This document shows positions 26,676-46,382 of a DNA stretch of 64,000 nt, piece after piece. The translations under genes and the position numbers were made by a program. Below the pieces are notes generated by a model, which was not told where the DNA came from, ran no database searches, and worked only from the letters and a program-made list of their open reading frames with translations. Each line of letters begins with the position of its first letter. The first letter of the stretch is position 1. The DNA comes from Oceaniferula marina. GTDB taxonomy: Bacteria > Verrucomicrobiota > Verrucomicrobiia > Verrucomicrobiales > Akkermansiaceae. The stretch is from contig NZ_JACBAZ010000007.1 in the NCBI RefSeq assembly GCF_013391475.1, forward strand, positions 62,001 through 126,000. Direction: 5' to 3'.

Positions 26676-27024
26676 GCTCTTTGGGGACTCTGTTTGCCGA
26701 GTGCGTGTATTCCTTGCTTTTTTGTGGCTCTTTTACAGCTTTTTATTGCATGGAAAGCAAATTGGGGTAAAGAATACTCCCCCCAAGTTCCGGCTTGCCA
26801 GGCTCCGAAGAGATTCGGGGCCGTTGGTGTGTCCGGCTTTTTGCATGTAAGGGTTTCTGTCTTAGCTGTTGGCGAATGACGGGGCCGGCCATGTGAGTGG
26901 ATAAGGTGGCTGGCATAGTGATGCGGGTTGTGGCTTTTGATGAAAAAGCTATCAAGCGGCGATCCCGATGTTGGACTTCATTTTATCCTATCCTTCCCAT
27001 CCAACCATTAACCCATTCCAAGGA
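26676..27024. other. Gap between cutA and the SNF2 gene, with two adjacent hairpins
   Basis: No convincing gene is present. TTGGGG (26762-26767) can pair with CCCCAA (26781-26786), and GGCTCCGAA (26801-26809) with TTCGGGGCC (26814-26822) around a GAGA loop. The second hairpin is not directly followed by T residues; a TTTTT run occurs about 15 bp later. It may be a weak terminator for cutA or a structured leader for the helicase gene. Confidence 0.4.
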
Positions 27025-30000
27025 ATGAATCCAGATAGAGCAACATTGAATTTTCTTAACGGCTTCCCCGAGGAGGCTCGCAATAGAGGCGAGTCCCTTC
27101 AGGAGGAAGGCGCCGTGACCCAGATATTCGGAAACCACTTGTTTATCCAAGGTCGAGTCGAGGATGCCTCAGGAACGCATCGAACCAGCCTGCGCTTGCA
27201 GGGGAACCGATGGTTCGGTAGTTGTACCGCTGAGGATGAAATCGTCGCCGGGGCATGTATGTATGCCACGATGATGGAGCGGATGTACCGCGGAGAGGAT
27301 CTCCCGGAGAACCCGAACGAGTTTGACGACACCCCGATCATTGACGTGATCGAAGAAAAACTCGGGCGCGAGTTGGATGATAAAGAAGCGGATTTTGTCA
27401 ACAAGGTGGAAAAACGTTACCGGCGTTATGTGATCGAAGGAGAAATCCACGACCATGATTTGGTGCGATTGAACCCTCGTTGGGAGATTGTCAGCTATGA
27501 CCCGCTTGAGTTGTGGCCGATGCCTCCGGGGGATATTTTGGAATTTTGGAACTATATTGCGTATGCCTTCTATAAGAAGCGTTTGCCATATCCTGAGTTT
27601 TTGAATGCGGTGACCGATCTTGAGTCGGTTCAGAAGAAAATGCAGGAGTGGGAGCGGGAGCGCGAAGTTTCCGAGTGGTATGACCGGATTGAAAGTGTCA
27701 ACGAGCGCCCTCCGATTGATCAGCCGCAGCATGTCGAATTCCGTTTGCTGTCGACGATTAACGAGGCCCGGGTGGAATTCCGCGAGCCGAAAGGTGAGTG
27801 GCTGCCACTACGTGAAAAGGCCGACATCGACCGCTTCGTTGTGTTGTTTGACGACTCGGCATTGCGGATGAACTCGCAAAGCCAGTTGATCTGGGAACAG
27901 TTCCTGACCTATTACAGCAAGGAGGGCGATGCTCGCTTTGACTTGGATCAGGAAGAAGCATGCCAGTTCATGAACCGGATTTTCCGGCAACCTGCTCTCA
28001 AAGGGTACGTTGTGAACTTGGATGAGCGTGATTTCAAGGTGGTGGATGATGCCTTGTGCTGGATTTGTGAGGATGACGTCTATGCTCCTGATAGCTTCGC
28101 CTTGCAGTTGGTAACGGCGAAAGGTGAGTATGTTTCTCACTCTGTCCGCTTGCTGCCAGGGCGTGAAGTCCTTTATCAATCTGACGAGACGGTCTTCCCT
28201 GGTCCTCCTCGCTGGTTGAGCGAAACCGATATCCAACCGCGCTATCATATCCCCAAGGATGTGATCGACAGCTTGGAGGGGGTTGAGTTTTTACGTAAAA
28301 TCGGAGCCTCATTGCCAGAGTCCCTGCGTGCGAGGGTTACCGATTTGGACCTCTATCCACGCTTCAAGATGAAGATCGAACAAGGTCTGACGGCTGCCGA
28401 GACCGAGCACCTTGTGATCGATGTCCGCGCCCTGGAGAAAAAGGAGCGCCGGGAGGAAAAACGTATCAAGGATGAGTGGGAACTGGTATCCCAGCAGCCG
28501 GTCAAAGGCCGTCAGCTGCTTCGTTTTGCACGTGAAAAACTTTACCCCGTGCCGAATTTGCTCTCCCAAATGGGGCTGAGCTACGATGAGAAACTGGATG
28601 CGTTTAAGGCCCGGGTAACGAAGCTCTTCCCTGAGAAATTTGCCGAATGGGCCAAAGCATTGCCTGAGTCCGTCGTCGTCGAAATGGACGGCAAATTGCA
28701 GACCCTGATGGCTGACCCGGTAACGGCCGCGATCCGATTTGAGGTGGTGAACCAGGAAATTGACTGGTTTGACCTGCGGATCGTGATTGACGTTGAAGGG
28801 GTTACGTTGTCCAACGCCCAGATTCGTTCCCTGGTGGCTGCCCGTGGTGGCTACGTGCGGATGGATGACGGGGGCTGGATGCGACTTGAAATCAAGTTGG
28901 ATGCTGACCAGCGTGATGCCGTGACCCGATTGGGACTGGATCCGTTCGATCTGACCGGAGAAACCCACAGGATGCACGCACTGCAGCTATCGGATCCGAA
29001 AGCTGCCGAAGTCTTCGATCCGAAGGCTTGGAAGCGAATCAAGGACCGCTCCCGCGAAATTCAAATCGAAGTCGACGCCGAAGTTCCGAAGAACCTCAAC
29101 GCCACCCTGCGTCCATACCAGGTGGAAGGTTTCCGGTTCCTGGCTTATCTGGCAACCAACCGCTTTGGTGGATTGCTGGCTGATGACATGGGACTGGGTA
29201 AAACGATTCAGGCGATTACCTTCATGCTCTGGCTGCGTGAAAACTATGCTGCAGATAAAGGCAAGGGGGCAACGATCCCGCCATCTTTGGTGGTGTCTCC
29301 GAAGTCGGTGATCGATGTTTGGCAGTCGGAAGTTGAGAAATTTGCCCCGGGAACGAGAGTCAGGATCTTGCGGACACGTGACGATCTTGATTTGGATGCC
29401 TTGGGTAAGGACGTTGATTTGCTCGTTCTGAACTATGCCCAACTTCGTCTCTGCGGTGAGGAACTCAGCAAGGTGAAGTGGTTGGCGACGATTCTGGACG
29501 AAGGCCAGCAAATCAAGAACCCGGACTCCAAAGCTGCCAAGGCCGCCCGCGATCTCAACTCGATGAACCGTCTGGTTCTGACCGGTACTCCGATTGAGAA
29601 CCGTTTGATGGATATGTGGTCGCTGATGTCCTTTGCCATGCCGGGGGTTCTCGGTAGTCGGGCATACTTCAAAAAACGTTTTGATAAACGCAAGGACCCG
29701 AGTGCTCAAAGCCGATTGGCCTCTCGCTTGCGCCCATTCCTTTTGCGCCGGACCAAGCTCCAGGTGGCCAAGGATCTTCCGCCTCGGACCGAGGAAGAGG
29801 TGTTCTGCGAAATGGAAGGCGTGCAGTCCGAGCTTTACAAGGCAGAGCTCAAGCGGATTCAGAAAGCGTTGCTTGGATTCGAGTCCGACGAGGCGGTGAA
29901 GAAGAACTCCTTTGCCATTCTGCAAGGCTTGATGCGTTTGCGTCAGATTTGCTGTCACCCGGGATTGATTGATCCTAAGTTCCTCAAGGAGGAGAGTGCC

Positions 30001-30600
30001 AAGATGAATGCGCTGTTCTACTTGCTCGATCAGTTGCGCGAGGAGGGGCACAAGGTGCTGGTCTTCTCCCAGTTTGTGTCGATGCTCGATATCATCAAGG
30101 CCCGCCTTGAGGTGGAGAGTCGCCCCTTCCACTACCTGACGGGGCAAACCAAGGACCGGAAGGGTGAAATTGAGAGTTTCCAAACAACCAAGCAGCCCTC
30201 GGTGTTTATGCTTTCGCTGAAAGCTGGAGGCTCCGGTCTGAACCTGACTTCGGCATCTTACGTGATTTTGTATGATCCATGGTGGAACCCAGCTGTGGAA
30301 AATCAGGCAATTGACCGGACACACCGGATTGGTCAGAAAAACAAGGTGATTGCTTATCGTTTGCTGACCCGTGAAACGGTGGAAGAAAAAATCCGCGTGC
30401 TTCAGCATCAGAAAACCCAGCTGGTGACGAACGTTCTCGGTGATGAAGGTTTTGCCACAAGCCTGGAAATGGAGGATCTCGCCTTTATTCTTGGATCCGG
30501 AGGCAACTTCGAAGAAGAGGATGAAAACGCGGCATCAAGAAAAACCGCGAAAAAAGCAGCGAAAAAAGCGGCTAAAAAGGCAGCGAAAAAATCCGAGTAA
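27025..30600 (+). CDS. SNF2-family helicase with degenerate SWIM-like N-terminus and lysine-alanine tail
   Basis: A 1191-residue Swi2/Snf2 ATPase expected to translocate on double-stranded DNA and remodel protein-DNA complexes. The helicase core starts near residue 695: NATLRPYQVEGFRFL, motif I ADDMGLGKT, motif II DEGQ, motif III LTGTPIENR, then the C-lobe with VFSQFVSMLDII, SLKAGGSGLNLT and QAIDRTHRIGQ. The N-terminal region includes a segment around 25-80 resembling a SWIM domain, but the zinc-binding Cys/His are mostly missing (SCTAED...AGACMYA). The last about 22 residues are Lys/Ala-rich (TAKK AAKK repeats), resembling histone H1 tails. The frame is open from 26968, but those 19 extra residues look noncoding, so I prefer 27025. 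Confidence 0.9.
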   Translation: MNPDRATLNFLNGFPEEARNRGESLQEEGAVTQIFGNHLFIQGRVEDASGTHRTSLRLQGNRWFGSCTAEDEIVAGACMYATMMERMYRGEDLPENPNEFDDTPIIDVIEEKLGRELDDKEADFVNKVEKRYRRYVIEGEIHDHDLVRLNPRWEIVSYDPLELWPMPPGDILEFWNYIAYAFYKKRLPYPEFLNAVTDLESVQKKMQEWEREREVSEWYDRIESVNERPPIDQPQHVEFRLLSTINEARVEFREPKGEWLPLREKADIDRFVVLFDDSALRMNSQSQLIWEQFLTYYSKEGDARFDLDQEEACQFMNRIFRQPALKGYVVNLDERDFKVVDDALCWICEDDVYAPDSFALQLVTAKGEYVSHSVRLLPGREVLYQSDETVFPGPPRWLSETDIQPRYHIPKDVIDSLEGVEFLRKIGASLPESLRARVTDLDLYPRFKMKIEQGLTAAETEHLVIDVRALEKKERREEKRIKDEWELVSQQPVKGRQLLRFAREKLYPVPNLLSQMGLSYDEKLDAFKARVTKLFPEKFAEWAKALPESVVVEMDGKLQTLMADPVTAAIRFEVVNQEIDWFDLRIVIDVEGVTLSNAQIRSLVAARGGYVRMDDGGWMRLEIKLDADQRDAVTRLGLDPFDLTGETHRMHALQLSDPKAAEVFDPKAWKRIKDRSREIQIEVDAEVPKNLNATLRPYQVEGFRFLAYLATNRFGGLLADDMGLGKTIQAITFMLWLRENYAADKGKGATIPPSLVVSPKSVIDVWQSEVEKFAPGTRVRILRTRDDLDLDALGKDVDLLVLNYAQLRLCGEELSKVKWLATILDEGQQIKNPDSKAAKAARDLNSMNRLVLTGTPIENRLMDMWSLMSFAMPGVLGSRAYFKKRFDKRKDPSAQSRLASRLRPFLLRRTKLQVAKDLPPRTEEEVFCEMEGVQSELYKAELKRIQKALLGFESDEAVKKNSFAILQGLMRLRQICCHPGLIDPKFLKEESAKMNALFYLLDQLREEGHKVLVFSQFVSMLDIIKARLEVESRPFHYLTGQTKDRKGEIESFQTTKQPSVFMLSLKAGGSGLNLTSASYVILYDPWWNPAVENQAIDRTHRIGQKNKVIAYRLLTRETVEEKIRVLQHQKTQLVTNVLGDEGFATSLEMEDLAFILGSGGNFEEEDENAASRKTAKKAAKKAAKKAAKKSE

Positions 30601-43244: not shown

Positions 43245-46200
43245 ATGCCTAAAGCACCACGCAAGAACGCTAAGAAGGCGGCTAAAAAGACAGCTAAGAA
43301 AGCTGTCAGCAAGACCGCTAAGAATGCCAAACGTAAACCAGCCGCCAAGAAGGCTGCTCGTAAGCCCGCAGCTAAAAAAGTAGCCAAGAAGGCTGCCAAG
43401 AAGGTTACAAAGAAAGTAGCTAAAAAAGCTACGAAGAAAGCTACTAAGAAAGTCGCCAAAAAGAAAGCCGCTCCTAAAGCAGCCAAGAAGGCCACGAAAA
43501 AGAAAGCCGCTCCTAAAGCTGCTAAGAAAGCAACTCGCAAGCCAGCCAAGAAAGCGACACGTAAGACCGCCGCTCGCCGGACCAAAAAAGTGAAAAATGT
43601 TTACTTCTTCGGTGGCGGAAAAGCTGACGGGGATGGATCCCAGAAAAACCTTCTCGGAGGTAAGGGCGCCAACCTGGCCGAGATGAACCGCATCGGACTT
43701 CCTGTTCCTGCCGGTTTGACTATCACCACAGAGGTTTGCACGTATTACTACGATAACGCGAAGAAATACCCTGCGACTCTTGATGCCGAGATCGATGCCA
43801 ACATTGCCAAGATTGAAAAAGTCATGGGCAAGAAGTTTGGTGATCTTGAAAACCCACTTCTCCTTTCTGTTCGTTCCGGTGCTCGTGAGTCGATGCCCGG
43901 CATGATGGACACCATTCTTAACCTTGGTATCAACGACCAGGTTGTGGAAGCCCTCTCTGAGAAAACCGGCAACCCTAAATTTGCATGGGACAGCTACCGC
44001 CGTTTCCTCCAGATGTATGGTTCTGTTGTGATGGGTGTGGAAGCCGAAGAAGGTGAGCACCACGACCCATACGAAGTGATCCTGGACAAAGCCAAGTCCA
44101 ACGCACAGGTCGAAATCGATTCCGAACTGAGCGAAGCCGACCTCCGTTGGGTGGTTGCCGAGTTCAAGCAGTTGATCAAGGACCGTAGTGGCAAGGACTT
44201 CCCTGAAGATCCTCGCGAGCAGCTCATGGGATCCGTGAATGCTGTGTTCAACTCATGGAACAACGACCGCGCCAAGGTTTACCGTCAGAAGTATGGTATC
44301 CCGGCTGAGTGGGGCACCGCTGTGAACGTTCAGGCCATGGTCTTTGGTAACACAGGTCCTGAGTCTGGAACTGGTGTTGCCTTTACCCGTGACCCTGCCA
44401 CAGGTGAAAACGTCTTCTACGGTGAGTATCTCATCGACGCCCAGGGCGAGGACGTGGTTGCTGGAGTTCGTACTCCCAAGCCTATTGCCAATATGTCCAA
44501 AGATCTTCCTGAGTCCCACAAGGAGCTTCTCGAAATCCGCAAGGTGCTTGAGGCTCACTTCAAGGACGTTCAGGACATCGAGTTCACCATCGAAGAAGGA
44601 AAACTCTGGATGCTGCAAACCCGTAATGGTAAGCGCACCGGATTTGCCGCGGTTAACATCGCCCTCGACATGGTGAAGGAAAAACTCATCACCCAGGAAA
44701 CTGCGATTCTGCGCATTCCTGCAGAAGACTTGAGCCACTTGCTTGCTCCTATCTTTGACGCTGCTGCTGAGAAGAAGGCCACCAACGTGGGCGCCGGTCT
44801 TCCTGCTGGCCCTGGTGCTGCATCCGGACAAATCTACTTCACTGCTGAAGCTGCTGTTGAAGCTGCTGAAAAAGGTCAGAAGGTGATCCTTACCCGTCAG
44901 GAGACCTCTCCTGAGGACTTGCGTGGAATGATTGCTGCGGAAGGTATCCTCACCACACGTGGTGGAGCTTCCTCACACGCTGCTCTTGTTGCCCGCCAGA
45001 TGGGTAAAGTTTGTGTTTGCGGTGCTCACACCATGGACATCGACTACGATGCCAAGACGCTGACCGGAAACGGTGTTGTTCTCAAGGAGGGTGATTTCCT
45101 TTCCCTGAACGGCTTTGTCGGTAACGTCTACGCCGGTGAAATCGAATCTTCACCATCCCAGGTGATTCAAGGTTTGATCGAGAACAAGGCAGCTGCTAAG
45201 AAGAGCGCGACTTACACCAAGTTTGTGCAGCTCATGAAGTGGGCTGACCGCCTTCGTAAGCTCGATATCCGCACCAACTCCGACACTCCGGATCAGGTGA
45301 AGACCGCCGTTAAGTTCGGCGCACAGGGAATCGGACTTACCCGCACAGAGCACATGTTCTTCGAAGGTGACCGTATCGATGCCGTTCGTGAGATGATCCT
45401 TGCGGACTCTGACGAAGGTAAGGCAAAGGCGCTGAAGAAACTTCTTCCATACCAGAAGAAAGACTTCACCGGTATCTTCAAAGCTCTTGAAGGCCGCCCT
45501 GCTACGATCCGTCTTCTGGACCCACCATTGCACGAGTTCATCGGCACCATGACTCATCAGCAGATTGATGAGCTGGCCGGTAAGCTTGGCGTTGAGTCAT
45601 CCTTCATCCACAGCCGTATCAACGCACTCCACGAAGAGAACCCAATGCTGGGTCACCGTGGTTGCCGTCTTGGAATCGTTTATCCTGAAATCACCAAGAT
45701 GCAGGCTACCGCGATCCTTGAAGCTGCTGTTGAAGTGAAGAAGAAGGGCACCAAGGTGGCTCCTGAAATCATGGTTCCTCTCGTCAGTTACGCGAAGGAG
45801 TTCGAACTTCAGAAAGAAGTCATCGACGCCGCCGCAGCTGAGGTGCGTGAGAAGCACGGTCTCAAGAAGAACCAGCTTCGTTACACCGTTGGCACCATGA
45901 TGGAGATTCCTCGCGCATGTTTGACCGCTGATGCAGTGGCCGAAACCGCTGAGTTCTTCAGCTTCGGAACCAACGACCTCACCCAGACCTGCCTTGGTCT
46001 GAGCCGTGACGACTCCAGCTCATTCCTTCCTGCCTACCAGGAAGCTGAGGTGGTTGACACCAACCCGTTCGCAAGCCTCGACCAGACAGGTGTTGGTCAG
46101 CTCGTTGAGACCGGTGTTGCCAAAGGTCGTAGCACCAACGAAAAGCTTAAGATCGGTATCTGTGGTGAACACGGTGGTGATCCTGAGTCTGTGAAGTTCT

Positions 46201-46319
46201 TCCACCGCACTGGTTTGAACTACGTTTCCTGCTCACCGTTCCGTATCCCGGTCGCTAAGCTTGCAGCTGCTCAGGCAGTGCTTGAAGAGCGCGGTATGGC
46301 CCGTGGTGAAGTCAGCTAA
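43245..46319 (+). CDS. ppdK: Pyruvate, phosphate dikinase with a histone H1/Hc2-like N-terminal extension
   Basis: A 1024-residue protein. Residues 116-1024 are a normal-length dikinase, which interconverts pyruvate, ATP and phosphate with phosphoenolpyruvate, AMP and pyrophosphate: the ATP-grasp start [11 protein letters not shown] with [27 protein letters not shown], the phosphohistidine loop [17 protein letters not shown], and the PEP domain with catalytic Cys in [10 protein letters not shown]. Residues 1-115 contain 47 Lys and 7 Arg, no acidic and no aromatic residues, in a four-residue XXKK rhythm; this is typical of chlamydial Hc2 and eukaryotic H1 tails and not of dikinases. The frame is continuous through the junction. 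A GTG at 43590 (codon 116) could start a tail-less form. A strong terminator follows. Confidence 0.93.
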
Positions 46320-46347: not shown

Positions 46348-46382
46348 AAGCCCCCGGTGGATGTTCCACCGGGGGCTTTTTT
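46348..46382 (+). terminator. Strong terminator after ppdK
   Basis: AAGCCCCCGGTGGA pairs with TTCCACCGGGGGCTT over about 14 bp with a two-base loop, then TTTTTT. Confidence 0.95.

Follow-up and report, generated by a model that had tools for sequence, protein, structure and literature searches.

The pyruvate, phosphate dikinase (PPDK) encoded in the window, the 64,000-nucleotide stretch of Oceaniferula marina DNA analysed here, carries a Lys/Ala-rich polycationic N-terminal tail (residues 1-117; 43245-43595, + strand). Such tails turn out to be common to most of the Verrucomicrobiota relatives examined and to some Planctomycetota. The account that we favour, giving it nearly even chances, is that of an old, disordered polycation that acts as a sequence-independent electrostatic tether on nucleic acid and has been lengthened in this organism. 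The extension appears genuine and is probably translated, having been inherited from an early member of its PPDK branch. In O. marina it may have grown from about 30 residues, the size in sister sequences, to 117 through duplications of 12-nt units encoding XXKK. Like the lysine-repeat tails of DNA-associated proteins, it would keep a fraction of PPDK on nucleic acid, either the nucleoid or RNA. An earlier sequence-only reading of this DNA had proposed a polycationic, tethering extension and was probably right in kind.

The open reading frame (43245-46319, + strand) has 1024 codons from ATG 43245 and remains open throughout, with the catalytic core and stop codon at 43596-46319. In the NCBIfam search, the PPDK equivalog TIGR01828 gave a full-length match at residues 117-1012, with 1277.9 bits against a cut-off of 843.45. 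All three expected Pfam domains (PPDK_N, PEP-utilizers and PEP-utilizers_C) were found, and phmmer aligns query residues 128-1014 to 1kbl. The AlphaFold2 model, made from a 38-sequence alignment, has a pLDDT of at least 70 for 872 of the 1024 residues, whole protein counted. Since H578 and C973 are invariant across the 38 aligned sequences, with both motifs intact, the enzyme looks intact; the unbroken frame and intact-looking core of the earlier reading are both upheld. We take H578 to be the phosphohistidine of PPDK. A terminator-like hairpin of 14 pairs (10 G-C) lies 3' of the gene at 46348-46378 (+); the consensus scan that located it found 7 sites compared to 4.1 expected, and the hairpin alone is not evidence of function.

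The tail itself has a very biased composition. Codons 1-115 encode 47 Lys, 7 Arg and 35 Ala with no Asp or Glu, which agrees with the count given earlier for basic and acidic residues, and there is one Ser in the entire tail. Residues 1-113 have a pLDDT below 50 in the same model, and residues 1-115 are predicted to be disordered. Among 338 ORFs in 464 kb of the own genome, window included, the most basic 30-residue stretch is found in this tail (net +16), followed by one of +13. The XXKK rhythm described earlier is borne out by 41 K/R pairs at distance 4; when the residues were shuffled 10,000 times, this number was never reached. The tail contains one PAKK and four KAAK motifs. It has the features used to describe H1-like lysine repeats, being Lys/Ala-rich, acid-free, predicted disordered and furnished with PAKK/KAAK. 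The likeness to histone H1 and chlamydial Hc2 that had been suggested stands for composition and fails for homology, as searching Pfam and NCBIfam with the tail alone gave no family match (E up to 0.1). The whole protein has a TolA match in NCBIfam (residues 7-197, 21.8 bits, below the cut-off of 59.45), which we take as a composition effect.

Tandem structure is present in the DNA of the tail. TRF reports periodicities of 12, 24 and 36 nt, all multiples of the reading frame, at 43370-43462 (+), and a 39-nt unit at 43437-43531 (+) with 2.4 copies, 82% matches and a consensus encoding 13 residues. The repeat family D1 has a spacing of 12 nt in 8 of 13 cases. In the longer TRF rows the repeat units differ, with 69-82% matches. 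These periodicities make duplication of XXKK units a simple account of tail growth, and the tail was apparently lengthened in this way. AAA and AAG, as well as all four Ala codons, are intermixed along it, which speaks for an array of some age. At 117 residues (repeat number as in the draft assembly) this is the longest tail of the set; the next longest has 71, and in its sister sequences the tail is 31 (L006) and 32 (L007) residues long. A frameshift or assembly artefact is ruled out by the open frame, by the differing repeat units and by the tails of many independent genomes.

For the comparison across the family, a tail was defined by a net charge of at least +6, and a short form by a net charge of at least +3 over at least 8 residues. 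Start codons were set at the nearest ATG, with eight re-chosen by eye; a longer frame is possible in rows scored as having none. PPDK was found in 45 of the 58 genomes searched (the own genome and relatives). The N-terminus was readable in 44 of them, own included, with 32 tails, 8 short forms and 4 without either, and the same extension is accordingly found by the homologue search in Verrucomicrobiota that had been proposed. Treating the tail as a one-off is therefore wrong: 31 of the 43 other relatives of the same genus, family or order are also tailed (18-45 residues). A scan of named genomes, restricted to the best 80 of 587 loci, contributed 77 rows to the count: 50 with a tail, 9 short and 18 with none. 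Together these give 121 distinct N-termini, of which 82 are tailed and 17 short. Tail length varies between 16 and 117 residues (median 26), and short forms start at 8.

In a FastTree phylogeny of the 121 tail-free cores, all 99 tailed or short rows fall in a single 111-row branch of Verrucomicrobiota/Planctomycetota type with local support of 100 (82 tail, 17 short, 12 none). None of the 10 rows outside it is tailed or short. These are labelled as Planctomycetota (two) and, with one each, Latescibacterota, Bacillota, Chlorobiaceae, Thermoanaerobaculum, "Proteobacteria", Deltaproteobacteria, Desulforhabdus and an unnamed bacterium. Taxon labels on metagenome-assembled genomes can mislead: L073 and L111 fall within the branch although they are named as other phyla. 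In all 10 PPDKs examined from Bacteroidota, Bacillota, Alphaproteobacteria and Spirochaetota, the core is preceded by 0-8 residues (10 of 93 matching plasmid records, with starts by annotation or nearest ATG). The best explanation of this distribution is that the tail is old and was inherited from an early member of the branch. At least 18 changes of tail state occur on starred branches of the core tree, therefore gains, losses or both must have been frequent inside the 111-row branch. A recent fusion with a neighbouring histone-like gene, suggested earlier, does not hold: the tail is old, and the window showed no such ORF of at least 80 residues.

Translation could instead begin at the GTG of codon 116 (43590-43592, +), leaving the upstream frame outside the protein. 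This codon had been pointed out as a source of a tail-less form; it does exist, two codons before the conserved core and with a GGA upstream, but conservation does not support the form itself, and we regard such a start as highly improbable. A start codon at this place is found in only 4 of the 121 rows, the window's own included, while an ATG directly opening an in-frame basic stretch recurs over the 111-row branch. Because of this recurrence, the long form from ATG 43245 is by far the likelier product. No clear Shine-Dalgarno sequence was seen before the tail ATG in 16 upstream regions read by eye; the weak GGA at the GTG therefore carries no weight, and the strength of the ribosome site cannot decide.

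Over the 82 tails, composition is kept much better than sequence. Acidic residues are absent from 75 tails, and the other 7 have one each. Pooled, the tails contain 34% Lys, 26% Ala and 6% Arg, with a mean K+R of 38%, and only 167 of 71,105 core windows are as basic and acid-free as the matching tail. The relatives, too, space their K/R residues non-randomly, at 0.42 of expectation for distance 2 and 1.39 for distance 4. PAKK or KAAK is present in 38 of the 82. The fraction R/(K+R) correlates with GC at rho -0.29 in tails and +0.53 in cores. Replacement of Lys by Arg as GC rises, expected from the Arg-rich tails of L066 and L069-L071, is contradicted by the full set of 82. Those four (L066, L069, L070 and L071) form a branch of Verrucomicrobia sequences, one being labelled Chthoniobacterales, and run against the general preference for Lys. 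Selection specific for Lys is one reading of this composition, and it would fit nucleic acid, polyphosphate or Lys modification alike. In equal-length tail pairs compared without gaps, amino acid changes exceed silent codon changes in 12 of 14, with 2 ties, unlike in the cores; missing gaps may inflate the amino acid changes. This pattern is as expected under relaxed as well as under composition-only constraint. Length and sequence of the tail turn over fast, and the Lys content and lack of acidic residues persist.

Besides this codon pattern, the spread of tail lengths from 16 to 117 residues and the 12 of 111 branch rows that have no tail stand against a tether. With these rows and the variable lengths, the tail must be dispensable somewhere. 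The same observations, together with the tandem structure in 12-nt multiples, the fast amino acid turnover and the 18 or more state changes, agree with tolerated low-complexity drift, where slippage in 12-nt steps resizes a harmless disordered leader with no selected function. We consider drift possible but unlikely, given that a basic leader is kept in 99 of 111 diverged rows, that 75 of 82 tails are acid-free, and that Lys is retained against GC pressure. It also leaves the choice of PPDK unexplained, although the 2.01 Mb that were scanned held no other enzyme with such a tail at its N-terminus.

The preferred tether on nucleic acid draws mainly on the other proteins that carry K/A tails. 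A search of 17 genomes with the own tail as query (E up to 0.01) gave 18 places in addition to that of the window. All are in 8 genomes of one genus, and none in the 6 genomes of other genera; such a search can miss short tails, and it did not pick up the PPDK tails of the relatives themselves. By Pfam, the places include RpoD (L154 and L163), five rows of DksA/TraR-type zinc proteins with two from one gene (named by Pfam at four loci, L157, L159, L164 and L167), and two SNF2 helicases with C-terminal tails (L168 and L169). In both RpoD and in the zinc-finger proteins L159, L164 and L167 the K/A tail is N-terminal, with roughly 100 residues or more. Five small K/A proteins share an end like EISHAAYLNY..GDWLAAE, as read by eye; one has DUF2934 below cut-off and four have nothing. 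Three further small proteins begin with MGKQH and match no family over the cut-off, and the remaining place is a fragment at a contig end.

Small proteins with a K/A tail and this short shared end are recurrent in the genus (L050, L155, L156, L158, L160 and L162), with DUF2934 below cut-off in L050 and L160 and no Pfam match in the other four. Another group of small proteins (L051, L166 and L170) has an MGKQH.. start, followed by basic residues resembling KRRKQYLKRKK and, at the C-terminus, by a K/A tail, with no Pfam family over the cut-off.

Run against the own genome with E up to 10, the tail query yielded PPDK, Rho, one K/A protein of 181 residues and a pair of small basic proteins; a tailed RpoD or DksA was not among them. 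The K/A protein (L053, G000:C1:86273-86539), about 181 residues long, consists almost wholly of K/A repeats, is Hc2-like and has no Pfam match. K/A-tailed Rho is represented by L052 and L210. Sampling of further genomes added a tailed Ku (L183) in G031 and Rho in G009, and a DUF1801 protein also carries such a tail. Within the window, a SNF2-family helicase ORF (26968-30597, +) ends in AASRKTAKKAAKKAAKKAAKKSE, a C-terminal K/A tail. This C-terminus, 13 kb from PPDK, is the only other such K/A stretch found in the window.

A strict scan for ATG-initiated K/A tails in 2.01 Mb of three genomes detected both control PPDKs and gave 3 matches. One is the PPDK of the window; the other two start at ATGs that lie 46 and 281 codons within longer frames. 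Looser scans, which used a longest-ORF filter and in one case missed the control PPDK of G031, picked up basic stretches at the C-terminus or in the interior of an RNA pseudouridine synthase, UvrB, ribosomal L3, a sulfatase and some ORFs without identification (L197, L218 and others). The sulfatase, from the own genome (L150:10231-11820), has a short basic C-terminal end, APGNKAAPQRKKKSRVKK, and runs against the pattern. Within the samples covered by these searches and scans, PPDK alone among metabolic enzymes proved to bear a K/A tail at its N-terminus.

In actinobacteria, TopA, HrdB, Ku and HupS are reported to have H1-like lysine repeats in common, and in TopA these stabilise the DNA complex (PMC7398561). 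DNA binding by HupB requires its tail domain, according to PMC5676037. The carriers found here (RpoD, Ku, Rho, DksA-type proteins and SNF2) appear strikingly parallel to the actinobacterial set. Nucleic acid is favoured as the partner of the PPDK tail mainly because of this parallel, which is guilt by association and comes mostly from one genus. The support from fellow carriers is narrow in that respect, and the list also includes the unnamed small basic proteins and the DUF1801 protein.

By a tail of the kind also carried by RpoD, DksA-type proteins, Rho and Ku, PPDK may be placed where polymerases release pyrophosphate. It would then be nucleoid- or transcription-associated across Verrucomicrobiota and some Planctomycetota, turning the released pyrophosphate and AMP into ATP, with tail length tuning its residence. 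We see this as a long shot. A DHHA2 domain occurs in 52 of 58 genomes and a membrane pyrophosphatase in 44, which argues against PPDK as the only pyrophosphate sink and leaves a pyrophosphate-sink motive for a nucleoid location unsupported. The own genome has two copies of the membrane enzyme and a DHHA2 domain on a 565-residue protein, presumably a family II pyrophosphatase. Pyrophosphate as the partner of the tail, proposed in the sequence-only reading, finds no specific support in a genome with these three proteins. A search for family I pyrophosphatase was negative in 56 of the 58 genomes. The two that have it are G015, with a tail-less PPDK, and G048, with a tailed one, both without a DHHA2 match.

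Pyruvate kinase is present in 48 of 58 genomes, therefore PPDK is no plain replacement for it. PF03618, which we take to be PDRP, the known PPDK regulator, was found in none of the 58 genomes, 45 of them having PPDK, while the control search detected it in E. coli, B. subtilis and Caulobacter. With PDRP not detected in this set, the tail is a candidate control point for PPDK and may influence its activity.

Docking on an anionic membrane, near a membrane pyrophosphatase with which PPDK would exchange pyrophosphate for ion pumping, was also considered. The membrane enzyme is present in 40 of 45 genomes with PPDK and in 4 of 13 without (Fisher p 9e-5), but these genomes are related and some incomplete, so the counts are not independent evidence, and the association concerns PPDK and not its tail. 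Membrane-binding basic segments typically contain hydrophobic or aromatic residues, and the tails are almost without them. We find such docking very unlikely. In the own genome, a membrane pyrophosphatase gene and PPK1 are about 5 kb apart (G000:C1 1092137-1099849).

Polyphosphate is the chief rival to nucleic acid as the partner. The tail could bind it non-covalently through its lysines, so as to store, localise or inhibit PPDK according to the phosphate and energy state, which we judge unlikely. One PPK1 and two PPK2 matches occur in the own genome, and the own tail peaks at 11 Lys in 20 residues. According to PMC12077175, polyphosphate caused a shift of two proteins that have 9 Lys in 20 but not of two others, which have 5 and 7. 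For E. coli YihI, PMC12345225 reports a severe loss of the shift once seven Lys near the N-terminus were replaced by Arg. The preference of the tails for Lys over Arg regardless of GC would be in line with this effect, but it fits H1-like tails equally well. Moreover, only 19 of the 82 tails reach 9 Lys in 20, and the own tail has at most 12 of 20 residues (60%) of the D/E/S/K type, below the 75% in 20 that defines a PASK motif.

Returning to the tether on nucleic acid, lysine-repeat tails are otherwise known on bacterial proteins acting on DNA. If true, a tail kept over a whole PPDK branch would tie a central carbon step spatially to a polyanion. The question of a tether is open to direct test through the tail lengths found in nature, which run from none to 117 residues. 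Lysine-repeat tails as such are already known; among open-licence PMC papers, we found no title or abstract opening on a lysine-rich tail of PPDK, and their presence over the whole branch was not found in print there.

When compared with solved PPDKs (1KBL, 1DIK and others), the whole catalytic core and its motifs, including H578 and C973, are alike. Alignments to the solved full-length enzymes begin no earlier than query residue 117 or 128, and the tail has no counterpart in them. Chlamydial Hc1 and Hc2 are similar in composition and rhythm; Hc2 is a stand-alone chromatin protein, whereas the PPDK tail is fused to an enzyme. The Hc2-like K/A protein of the own genome is encoded elsewhere and not beside PPDK. 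Known targets of lysine polyphosphate modification, such as EngA and SrmB, share the high Lys count per 20-residue window, although 63 of the 82 PPDK tails stay below the count of such positives. The closest likeness in kind is to the repeats of actinobacterial TopA, HrdB, Ku, HupS and HupB and of eukaryotic H1/H5, which, like the PPDK tail, are K/A-rich, contain PAKK/KAAK, are disordered and are appended to another domain. Unlike these, the PPDK tail is N-terminal and sits on a metabolic enzyme, one that to our knowledge has no business with DNA.
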